A stretch of DNA of 64,000 nucleotides from the NCBI RefSeq assembly GCF_012689525.1, contig NZ_CP051516.1, forward strand, positions 2,418,001-2,482,000, read 5' to 3'. Made by a program: the position numbers and the translations under genes. Positions 52,472-60,261 of this stretch are shown in pieces. Each line of letters starts with the position of its first letter. Within the stretch, counting starts at the first letter, position 1. Under the pieces are notes generated by a model. That model saw only the letters and a list, made by a program, of their open reading frames with translations. It made no database searches and was not told the origin of the DNA. Source of the stretch: Paraburkholderia aromaticivorans. GTDB taxonomy: Bacteria > Pseudomonadota > Gammaproteobacteria > Burkholderiales > Burkholderiaceae.

Positions 52472-53401
52472 ATGAACCGTTTGCCGCCGCTGCGCGCCCT
52501 CCAGGCATTCGATGCCGTGGTTCGCAACAAGAATGTAGTCGCCGCCGCCGAATCGCTGCACGTGACGCCCGGCGCAGTCAGTCAACAAATCCGCCAGCTC
52601 GAGGAGTTCCTCGGCGTCGCGCTGTTCGACCGCGAAAGCACCGGCCTGCGCCCCACCGCGCTCGGTCAGCTCTACCACGAGCAAGTGGCCCGCGGCTTCG
52701 AATGCTTTCATGCCGCGCACACCACCCTGCGAGCGGCACAGCATGGTCCCCACTTGACACTCAGCACGTTCCCTTCGGTCGCCACGCATTGGTTTGCATC
52801 CCGGCTAGATAAGTGGCACACGCTGTCACCCGGCGTGCGCGTCCACGTCGAGGCCACGGATCGCGAGCCAAAGCGTGGGGAAAGCAATTGGGATATCCGT
52901 ATGACGTATGGATCGCCGCCCGCGGACGGAGCCCACTGCCGCCTCCTGTTCACCGACCGGGTGACGCCCGTCTGCTCGCCGTCACTGCTGCGGGCGGACC
53001 GCCCGATCGAGCAGCCCGCGGACTTGCTGCACTACCCGCTTGTCCATGTCGAGTGGGGCTGGGACGACAGGTCGCCGCCGACCTGGGGCGACTGGTTGCG
53101 CGCAGCCGGCGTTCCCGTGCCGGACACACTGGCTCCGTTGACCTATTCGCTTTCCGGAATGGCCGTCGATGCGACTCTACGCGGCAGAGGCGTGTCGCTC
53201 GGCCAGGGACTTTTCACTGCCGATAGCCTGACGCAGGGACTGCTGATCGCACCGTTCAGGATCTCGCTGCCCATGCCGTACCCGTACTACCTGGTGTGGC
53301 AAACCGGCGCGCTCAATACGCCGGACGCGCGGCAATTCCTTGACTGGCTGACCGAGGAAGCCGCACAGACGCAACGCGAAATCAACGCGATATTCGGTTG
53401 A
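52472..53401 (+). CDS. GcvA-type LysR regulator of the lyase/Rieske locus
   Basis: The 309-residue product has the GcvA-subgroup N-terminus (MNRLPPLRALQAFDAVVRNKNVVAAAESLHVTPGAVSQQIRQLEEFLG, outlined) and effector domain (LTLSTFPSVATHWFASRLDKW, GESNWDIRMTYGSPP, PLVHVEWGWDDRSPPTWGDWL, outlined). Regulators of this group often control amino-acid or aromatic catabolic genes. It is followed by the MIO-less lyase on the same strand, 199 nt away. A 13-bp box in that gap recurs before the Rieske operon, so this protein is the best candidate to bind both. The ribosome site is weak. Confidence 0.87.
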   Translation: MNRLPPLRALQAFDAVVRNKNVVAAAESLHVTPGAVSQQIRQLEEFLGVALFDRESTGLRPTALGQLYHEQVARGFECFHAAHTTLRAAQHGPHLTLSTFPSVATHWFASRLDKWHTLSPGVRVHVEATDREPKRGESNWDIRMTYGSPPADGAHCRLLFTDRVTPVCSPSLLRADRPIEQPADLLHYPLVHVEWGWDDRSPPTWGDWLRAAGVPVPDTLAPLTYSLSGMAVDATLRGRGVSLGQGLFTADSLTQGLLIAPFRISLPMPYPYYLVWQTGALNTPDARQFLDWLTEEAAQTQREINAIFG

Positions 53402-53440
53402 CCCTTTCCTCTTTGCCGGCCCCGACAGCGCCACTCGCGT

Positions 53441-53453
53441 TTTAGAAAAACTA
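53441..53453 (+). promoter_or_regulatory. 13-bp box upstream of the lyase (shared with the Rieske promoter)
   Basis: TTTAGAAAAACTA lies 148 nt before the lyase start. It fits the LysR T-N11-A pattern with the dyad TAG/CTA, and it recurs exactly, on the other strand, at 58308-58320. Confidence 0.65.
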
Positions 53454-53600
53454 TAGGGGCTCCGCAGATTAAATGGTTTGTCGGCGTCTATGCGCCACCC
53501 TATGCTCGAAAGCGAATCCATGCGCATCAGCCATGGCTGTTTGCCAGTGCATGCCTGGCCGCATGGTTTCAGCTAACCAGCCAAATCATAGGGATCACGC

Positions 53601-58473: not shown

Positions 58474-58502
58474 ATTCGTCGCGAGTCATTGAGAGATCTG
58501 TC

Positions 58503-59612
58503 ATGAAATCACGTGCTGCAGTTGCATTCGGGCCAGGAAAACCCCTGGAAATCGTCGAGATCGACGTTGCACCGCCGAAGAAAGGCGAAGTGCTGGTAAA
58601 GATCTCCCATACGGGCGTATGCCACACGGACGCCTTCACGCTCTCGGGCGACGACCCGGAAGGCCTGTTCCCCTGCGTGCTCGGGCATGAAGGCGCTGGC
58701 GTTGTGGTGGAAATCGGCGAAGGCGTCACGTCGGTCCAGCCCGGCGACCACGTGATCCCGCTCTACACAGCGGAGTGCGGCGAATGCCTGTTCTGCAAGT
58801 CGGGCAAGACGAACCTGTGCGTCGCCGTTCGTGCCACCCAGGGCAAAGGCGTGATGCCGGACGGTACGACCCGCTTCTCCTACAACGGCCAGCCGATCTA
58901 CCACTACATGGGTTGCTCGACGTTTAGCGAGTACACCGTGGTCGCCGAAGTCTCCCTTGCAAAAATCAATCCGGCTGCGAATCACGAACAGGTGTGCCTG
59001 CTGGGTTGCGGCGTCACGACGGGTATCGGTGCCGTGCACAATACCGCCAAGGTGCAACCAGGCGACAGCGTCGCCGTGTTCGGGCTCGGCGGCATCGGGC
59101 TCGCTGTCATTCAGGGGGCTCGCCAGGCCAAGGCCGGCCGGATCATCGCGATCGACACAAACCCGTCGAAGTTCGAACTGGCGAAAGTCTTCGGCGCCAC
59201 CGATTGCGTGAACCCGAAAGACCATGAAAAACCGATCCAGCAGGTTATCGTCGAGATGACCGGTTGGGGCGTCGATCATTCATTCGAATGCATCGGCAAC
59301 GTCAATGTCATGCGTGCGGCGCTGGAGTGCGCCCACCGCGGTTGGGGACAATCCGTCGTCATAGGGGTCGCGGGGGCCGGTCAGGAAATCTCGACACGCC
59401 CGTTCCAGCTGGTGACGGGCCGCACATGGAAAGGCACGGCATTTGGTGGCGTGAAAGGCCGCTCACAACTGCCGGGCATGGTGGAAGACGCCATGCGAGG
59501 CGACATCCAGCTCGCCCCGTTCGTCACGCACAGATTGCCGCTCGATCAGATCAACGAAGCATTCGATCTGATGCACGACGGCAAGTCGATTCGCACAGTG
59601 ATCGGCTACTAG
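58503..59612 (+). CDS. frmA: S-(hydroxymethyl)glutathione dehydrogenase (class III alcohol dehydrogenase)
   Basis: The 369-residue zinc dehydrogenase oxidises S-hydroxymethylglutathione, the adduct of formaldehyde and glutathione, to S-formylglutathione with NAD. Catalytic zinc ligands are in [16 protein letters not shown] and GHEGAGVV, structural zinc in [15 protein letters not shown], and the nucleotide loop is [35 protein letters not shown] is the class III N-terminus, so ATG 58503 is preferred over the longer frame from 58452. It is divergent from the Rieske operon and 73 nt before gfa. Confidence 0.95.
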
Positions 59613-59685
59613 GACACGACTGTGCGCCTTCTTCGGTGCAGCGTCATTGCGCCGATTTTAATTCGGAAACGTTGGAGGATACAGA

Positions 59686-60261
59686 ATGAATACCACGACA
59701 ATCCACCCGTCAGTGGACGCCGGTGTCAGGAAGGGCACGCCTGGTTTTACCGGCGGTACGCTCCACTGCCAATGCCAGAGCGACAAAGTCGAAGTCCGGG
59801 TAGAAAGTAACGTCGCACACAACCACATTTGCGGCTGTACGAAGTGCTGGAAACCGGCTGGCGCGGCTTTCGCAATGATAGGCGTGGTGCCGCGCGATAA
59901 GGTCACGGTCACCGCTCATGCCGAGAAACTCCAGGTCGTCGACGAGGAAGCGGCAATCCAGCGTCATGCCTGCAAGGCGTGCGGAGCGCACATGTATGGC
60001 CGGATAGAAAACCGTGACCATCCGTTCTACGGTCTTGACTTCATTCACGTCGAACTCTCCGATGATAGCGGTTGGGAAGAGCCGCGCTTTGCGGCTTTCG
60101 TCTCGTCGGTCATCGAAGCTGGCGGCGCGAAACCGGAACAGATGGACGATGTGCGTGCGCGGCTCACTGAGCTCGGACTCCCACCGTACGATGCGCTCAA
60201 CCCGCCGTTGATGGACGCGATGTCCACGCATATCGCCAAGCGCAATGGTGTGCTGAAATAG
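59686..60261 (+). CDS. gfa: S-(hydroxymethyl)glutathione synthase (glutathione-dependent formaldehyde-activating enzyme)
   Basis: The 191-residue product is a Gfa-family zinc protein reported to promote condensation of formaldehyde with glutathione. Zinc-binding cysteines are in [29 protein letters not shown] and [21 protein letters not shown] lies 7 nt before the ATG. With frmA it forms a formaldehyde-oxidation pair. A formylglutathione hydrolase (frmB) is not seen nearby and must be encoded elsewhere. Confidence 0.93.

Follow-up and report, generated by a model that had tools for sequence, protein, structure and literature searches.

A candidate histidine betaine catabolism locus combining a lyase and a Rieske oxygenase in Paraburkholderia aromaticivorans

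We analyzed a 64,000-nucleotide stretch of the Paraburkholderia aromaticivorans genome (contig NZ_CP051516.1, positions 2,418,001 to 2,482,000; hereafter, the window), in which an initial annotation, made from the sequence alone, had proposed a locus for the catabolism of a methylated amino acid or betaine. The locus comprises a LysR-type regulator, a lyase of the histidine ammonia-lyase (HAL) family without the 4-methylideneimidazol-5-one (MIO) motif, a minus-strand run encoding a VanA-type Rieske oxygenase, a reductase and a periplasmic substrate-binding protein (SBP), and the formaldehyde genes frmA and gfa. Coordinates and family matches confirmed all seven genes where the initial annotation had placed them (Table 1). 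In what follows, L numbers denote examined loci and G numbers genomes, the window genome being G000 (contig C3; 10.84 Mb).

Table 1. Genes and predicted regulatory sites of the locus, in window positions.
Feature	Position	Strand	Basis or remark
LysR-type regulator (GcvA-like), 309 aa	52472..53401	+	PF00126/PF03466; NF008352 GcvA 239.3 bits, under 288 cut-off
Tandem LysR-type site, TTTAGAAAAACTA-N14-ATTAAATGGTTTG, upstream of lyase	53441..53480	+	Predicted from sequence
MIO-less HAL-family lyase, 524 aa; proposed histidine-betaine trimethylamine-lyase	53601..55175	+	PF00221 551 bits
Periplasmic amino-acid/opine-type binding protein (SBP family 3)	55272..56132	-	PF00497
Flavin/[2Fe-2S] (phthalate dioxygenase reductase-type, PDR-type) reductase, putative Rieske oxygenase partner	56179..57198	-	Fer2, NAD_binding_1
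VanA-type Rieske oxygenase, proposed demethylase	57173..58213	-	Rieske + VanA_C (PF19112, E 2e-38)
Tandem LysR-type site, TTTAGAAAAACTA-N14-TTCAAATCGTTTG, upstream of Rieske operon	58281..58320	-	Predicted; spacing identical to lyase site
HutC-type operator TTGTCTATACAA	58462..58473	+	Predicted; starts 41 bp before frmA ATG (58503)
frmA, S-(hydroxymethyl)glutathione dehydrogenase	58503..59612	+	TIGR02818 727.6 bits vs 543.95 cut-off
gfa, S-(hydroxymethyl)glutathione synthase	59686..60261	+	TIGR02820 317.3 vs 234.55 cut-off; NF003829 328.4, over cut-off

The start of the Rieske gene was taken at the ATG of MYLRN, within an open reading frame that reaches 58252; the gene overlaps that of the reductase by 26 bp, and a 46 bp gap follows before the SBP gene. 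The frmA reading frame opens at a TTG (58452), its likely start being the ATG given in Table 1. The promoter and terminator scan returned no sigma-70-like site, and terminators were not in excess.

The lyase scores above the TIGR01225 (hutH) cut-off (543.9 against 539.15), so automatic annotation would name it a histidine ammonia-lyase. It is alike HutH in fold, in sequence (34-36% identity), in its carboxylate and imidazole residues and in the hut pathway expected downstream, but differs in its regulator and in the MIO-forming tripeptide: the alignment reveals a three-residue deletion (GSVGY---LGP) that converts the HAL segment GSVG-ASG-DLAP into GSVG-Y-LGP, which bears out its initial description as MIO-free. 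The ASG motif is absent from the window lyase and its best 120 homologues. This deletion, together with the separate ASG-containing hutH in the hut operon of the host, rules out an ordinary HutH. The residues equivalent to HAL Y53, H83, R283 and E414, which we take to be the substrate residues for carboxylate and imidazole, are kept in every MIO-less sequence aligned. A tree of sampled relatives places the MIO-less sequences, of three clades (A, B and C), on one side of a single branch (34 rows; 99/94). The lyase is 97% identical to a protein of Paraburkholderia sp. RL18-101-BIB-B, and its nearest proteins agree with an origin in Paraburkholderia. In PMC13405746, ergothionase is presented as an enzyme with the HAL fold and no MIO that eliminates trimethylamine from a histidine betaine. 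By its sequence, the loss of MIO in the window lyase suggests a leaving group that needs no activation, such as trimethylamine in ergothionase.

The distribution of these lyases was surveyed with E-value thresholds of 1e-130 in the order, 1e-120 in the family, 1e-115 in the class and, with the L007 lyase as query, 1e-120 in Pseudomonas, counting the centre genome each time. Close clade A lyases are rare (1/399 order, 10/398 family and 1/321 class genomes; 11/298 Pseudomonas genomes with the L007 query), and we distinguish two subtypes, YLG and YLA, named for the residues after the deletion. The LysR-lyase and SBP-reductase-Rieske block is kept in all nine Burkholderiaceae YLG loci examined (the window, L001, L002, L003, L004, L005, L014, L087 and L090; L086, L088 and L089 duplicate L002, L014 and L005, respectively), in agreement with the conserved neighbourhood that had been anticipated. 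The conserved unit is LysR-lyase-SBP-reductase-Rieske, followed beyond the Rieske gene by HisQMP transporter genes in six of the nine loci. The larger unit first proposed, with frmA-gfa, did not hold up, since these genes stand there instead only in the window, L001 and L002. All four Pseudomonas YLG loci (L007, L122, L123 and L124) present LysR2 and a Rieske2-reductase-SBP-HisQMP-lyase arrangement, in which the Rieske and LysR paralogs differ from those of the Burkholderiaceae, so that a Rieske gene is co-located with the YLG lyase in 13/13 loci of the two groups. Conversely, no Rieske gene was found near the YLA lyase in any of 14 loci, five from Burkholderiaceae (L091-L095) and nine from Pseudomonas (L008, L009, L010 and L125-L130), within the stretches examined, those of L008, L009 and L125 being short; when the genomes of L008, L009 and L010 were compared with the L007 Rieske protein, nothing matched at more than 35%. 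Four alignment columns, among them G161, separate YLG from YLA in both lineages, and one genome (G750) carries both subtypes.

The pattern TTTAGAAAAACTA-N14-[AT]T[TC]AAATSGTTTG has two matches in the 64 kb, one before the lyase (53441) and one before the Rieske gene (58320, minus strand). Because it was built from these two sites, its test lies in relatives. We therefore turned to a matrix trained on the window, L001 and L002 only: in all six unused loci (L003, L004, L005, L014, L087 and L090), its top two matches are the lyase and Rieske promoters, with 31.0-44.6 bits and a third match of at most 10.3. Furthermore, the Burkholderiaceae YLA loci present one LysR-type site, upstream of the lyase, in 5/5 cases (27.6-41.5). 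The shared promoter site argues strongly against independent regulation of lyase and Rieske genes in the Burkholderiaceae, an outcome that would have counted against the initial proposal, and predicts their co-regulation, with the LysR-type protein as the candidate activator of both promoters. The block kept in nine of nine loci and the promoter sites shared by relatives also indicate that the arrangement goes beyond chance.

The Rieske domain, the VanA_C domain and the adjoining reductase define a VanA-type architecture, and the protein has CPH / CGYH and DxxHxxxxH motifs, which we take in the meaning usual for Rieske oxygenases. It resembles VanA/DdmC-type demethylases and the methylxanthine N-demethylases NdmA/B, a family whose members demethylate oxidatively, in its Rieske and VanA_C domains and its flavin/2Fe-2S reductase; the nearest PDB sequence is DdmC (169 bits, against 69.7 for NdmA). 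Unlike these enzymes, the window Rieske protein goes together with a MIO-less lyase and an SBP of the opine type, and no close relative of known function was found. Six of the 398 family genomes carry a YLG lyase, and window-type Rieske proteins (at least 79% identity) occur in precisely these six, co-located with the lyase. The 21 weaker matches of this survey (54-59%) correspond to the Rieske2 paralog, which in the nine examined has LysR2, a DUF2817 relative and a further SBP as neighbours, with a reductase in six of nine and no lyase. These conserved, lyase-free LysR2-Rieske2-DUF2817-SBP2 clusters of Burkholderiaceae (L103-L111) represent a Rieske pathway, so far uncharacterised, that would handle a different amino-acid-like compound. 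For the window protein, its family and the adjacent formaldehyde genes lead us to propose oxidative demethylation. Since YLA lyases manage without a Rieske partner, the oxygenase would target something particular to the YLG substrate, a ring methyl group being the most likely candidate; what the oxygenase acts on is the part of our reading that we hold least firmly.

PMC4494728 gives GTMTAKAC as the consensus of the HutC subfamily, and PMC12977541 gives TGTA-N2-TACA as the Phut pattern. The pattern CTTGTNTANACAA has a single match in the 64 kb, before frmA (chance mean 0.01), where a candidate GTMTAKAC-type operator is located; the stricter TGTA-N2-TACA has no match in the window. A HutC-type site (TTGTMTAKACAA, 0 matches in 805,942 bases of control sequence) lies upstream of frmA or hisQ in eight of the nine Burkholderiaceae YLG loci and also precedes the lyase B operons of L083, in the window genome, and L097. 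Similarly, TGTA-N2-TACA (two matches in the 805,942 control bases) is present upstream of the SBP gene or hutU in eight of the nine Pseudomonas YLA loci, the exception being L009. An ordinary hutU copy is part of the lyase cluster in four of these nine loci; it is whole in L127, 0.5 kb from the lyase, and in L130, 4.6 kb away past SBP and HisQMP, and cut by the contig end in L125 and L010. In the genomes of L127 and L130, another hutU matches the query just as closely (100% and 100% in G1244, 96% and 96% in G1376). Moreover, in L097, L099 and L100, lyase B has hutC or further hut genes as neighbours. Taken together, the hutU copies, the HutC-type sites and the hut neighbours point to a urocanate-type product, and hence to a histidine-derived substrate; at the window locus itself, such a product is suggested by the operator before frmA. 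The HAL H83 and E414 equivalents and the genomic links to urocanase and hut do not favour O-methyltyrosine, proline betaine or the betaines of tyrosine, phenylalanine and tryptophan. The aromatic or imidazole methylated amino acid of the initial annotation is thereby narrowed to an imidazole with methyl groups as the best-supported class. Among its listed candidates hercynine stands, and ergothioneine appears less likely, as the urocanases associated with the lyases are of the ordinary hutU kind.

Other MIO-less lyases occur in diverse settings. The window genome has a second one, of clade B (L083, G000:C2:2198000-2217900, 10551-16593), in an SBP-HisQ-HisM-HisP-lyase operon with a HutC-like regulator and the HutC-type site; the named sources among its best 120 homologues are Paraburkholderia or Burkholderia. 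The genes annotated as histidine ammonia-lyase in Sinorhizobium meliloti pSymB (L100, 8878-10377), Rhizobium leguminosarum (L099, 8926-10413) and L098 (8989-10485) also have no MIO motif, those of L099 and L100 adjoining ABC transporters and hut genes, and this annotation is probably wrong. In Pseudomonas L007 (14087-21153), an enolase-family protein, a GbcA-like Rieske oxygenase (NF058607, 582.3 bits, under the 670 cut-off), an Ldh_2 dehydrogenase, lyase B and a reductase directly adjoin the lyase A cluster. A betaine context is also seen in the cockroach-gut Deltaproteobacterium Smac51 (L075, 9992-14539), where a MIO-less lyase, an MttB-family methyltransferase (PF06253, 389 bits) and a sodium:solute symporter stand in a row. 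Lastly, clade C lyases of Agrobacterium (L096, 5557-13484) and Sodalis (L101, 5597-13383) lie in one run with an ABC transporter, a CoA transferase, a 3-hydroxyacyl-CoA dehydrogenase and an enoyl-CoA hydratase, and probably serve another betaine, with the acrylate product going to beta-oxidation.

FrmA and Gfa both score over the curated cut-offs of their equivalog models. In the window, L001 and L002, the sequence block ahead of frmA aligns with that ahead of hisQ in L003, L004, L005 and L087 and is similar to the one ahead of the lyase B SBP gene, indicating that frmA-gfa occupies the place of the HisQMP transporter of relatives, behind the same HutC-type promoter. The nearest other frmA of the host (59% identity) lies elsewhere, beside a frmB-like esterase. 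A frmB-frmA pair is found near L087 too, but it resembles this host frm operon (frmA 96%), so its adjacency may be incidental and we dropped it as independent support. A vicinal oxygen chelate (VOC) protein was considered as a marker of formaldehyde operons and was not found in the host frm operon. As a conserved partner, frmA-gfa was rejected beyond the closest relatives (window, L001 and L002).

The nearest PDB entries to the window SBP are octopine- and nopaline-binding proteins. Its pocket (E11, D69, A70 and Y122 in the numbering of the lysine-arginine-ornithine-binding protein, LAO) is common to the SBPs of lyase B operons and unlike that of HisJ/ArgT, for which we take D11, S69, S70 and Q122 to be the pocket residues. 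The host also has dimethylamine and methylamine genes, as judged by sequence: a dmm cluster with DmmA (NF041259, 109.3 bits against 60), a heme-dependent oxidative N-demethylase (HODM, PF11927) and an Old Yellow Enzyme (OYE)-family flavoprotein alongside, and a cluster of soxBAG-like genes, a type III glutamine synthetase (TIGR03105, 628 bits against 469.6), mgsABC-like genes and folD, which we take to represent the N-methylglutamate pathway.

In broad terms, it is very probable that this soil bacterium takes up and degrades a methylated histidine relative with these jointly regulated genes, the oxygenase probably taking off a methyl group. On balance, we consider it somewhat probable that the locus degrades hercynine, or a ring-methylated variant of this histidine betaine, to trimethylamine and a urocanate, with Rieske demethylation and clearance of formaldehyde by frmA-gfa. 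In this scheme, the SBP would capture the histidine-derived betaine and deliver it to HisQMP, adjacent in relatives and here possibly borrowed from the lyase B operon. The lyase would eliminate the quaternary amine as trimethylamine, leaving a urocanate-type acrylate for the hut pathway. The methyl group that the oxygenase and reductase release as formaldehyde would most likely come from an imidazole ring, either that of a ring-methylated hercynine or that of the acrylate formed from it. FrmA and Gfa would clear this formaldehyde, in the window and its closest relatives only. The LysR-type protein would switch lyase and Rieske genes jointly, and a HutC-type repressor answering urocanate would control frmA-gfa here and the transporter in relatives; these regulators, the residue roles and the operator function are assigned from family knowledge. 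GbcAB and stachydrine-type clusters provide a precedent for Rieske-based betaine catabolism with release of formaldehyde, but the window Rieske protein is of a different class, and an eliminating lyase takes the place of stepwise N-demethylation. Among the papers listed by searches of the open-licence PMC literature, none dealt with the combination of MIO-less lyase and Rieske oxygenase; the initial annotation likewise knew of no such pathway.

Several observations weigh against this reading, whose enzyme, ligand and expression steps are all read from sequence. In the window SBP, the Asp at the position of LAO D161 is retained, a residue that presumably binds the alpha-ammonium of ordinary amino acids, so the pocket gives no proof of a quaternary ligand. 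Six YLG loci of other groups (L006, L011, L012, L013, L038 and L075) have no Rieske gene nearby, so the subtype needs none, and G161 is rejected as a general sign that a Rieske partner is present; likewise, the lyase-free Rieske2 clusters imply that the Rieske family has other uses. The tandem LysR-type site was not found in the Pseudomonas YLG loci, where the LysR is another paralog, and HutC-type sites are absent from 4/4 Pseudomonas YLG loci, 5/5 Burkholderiaceae YLA loci and L014. No hutU copy lies near L126, L128 or L129, and extra copies are not unique to lyase loci, as G1386 (YLG) has three, none at the lyase. A gfa match occurs in 25 of 144 genus genomes and is at the lyase in only three, of one sublineage; among the remainder, three have the YLG lyase on another contig, eight have no lyase in the family survey and 11 fall outside the lyase count. 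Finally, we know of no ring-methylated hercynine from soil.

The main rival, which we regard as unlikely, holds that the substrate is plain hercynine and that the Rieske oxygenase demethylates the released trimethylamine to formaldehyde and dimethylamine, the latter passing to the dimethylamine and methylamine routes of the host. The DmmA/HODM and N-methylglutamate-type genes, the adjoining formaldehyde genes and the promoter site common to lyase and Rieske genes fit this proposal. However, the 14 YLA lyases should also release trimethylamine and have no Rieske gene beside them, the host dmm cluster offers another candidate in its OYE-family flavoprotein, G750 has both lyase subtypes, and we know of no Rieske trimethylamine demethylase.

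A less probable alternative is that the lyase is an ergothionase, converting ergothioneine into thiourocanate and trimethylamine, with the Rieske oxygenase acting on a sulfur- or ring-modified intermediate. The likeness to known ergothionases (Treponema denticola, 6s7j; Burkholderia sp. HME13, BAM63550) is that of HAL-fold lyases without MIO, and Maurer reportedly described in 2019 an ergothionase of this kind eliminating trimethylamine. Nevertheless, the window lyase is less similar to the T. denticola enzyme (28-29% identity) than to HAL, and 6s7j ranks only 12 against its predicted structure, not above HAL. The window locus differs further in its attached Rieske oxygenase and reductase, no urocanase homologue was found in window-type clusters, and the ordinary hutU copies linked to Pseudomonas lyases, like the HutC-type sites, speak for urocanate and not for thiourocanate. 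A loose neighbourhood, with a histidine-derivative lyase and a Rieske oxygenase for an unrelated methyl compound merely under a common regulator, would suit the lyase-free Rieske2 clusters and the Rieske-free YLA clusters but is very unlikely given the 13/13 co-localisation in two families with different Rieske and LysR paralogs, the common tandem promoter sites and the same 6/398 genomes for lyase and Rieske.

Fungi and actinobacteria produce hercynine and ergothioneine, and to our knowledge little is known of what becomes of these compounds in soil. If histidine betaine catabolism is correct, many genes now labelled hutH (those of clades A, B and C, rhizobial plasmid copies among them) would be betaine lyases releasing trimethylamine, and the locus would show how the use of histidine betaines is coupled with hut control and with a Rieske demethylase. 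These gene-substrate predictions are directly testable and constitute a warning for automatic annotation. More tentatively, a ring-methylated histidine betaine might be an unrecognised soil nutrient, for which Burkholderiaceae and Pseudomonas would each have recruited a dedicated Rieske N-demethylase, drawn from different paralogs, as the partner of one MIO-less lyase subtype, with frmA-gfa captured behind a urocanate-responsive promoter in the transporter's place.

Adjoining the locus is a pair of genes for a GntR/FCD regulator and a fumarylacetoacetate (FAA) hydrolase (window 61797-63541), relatives of which (80-82%) lie ~3-5 kb from the YLA lyase in L095.

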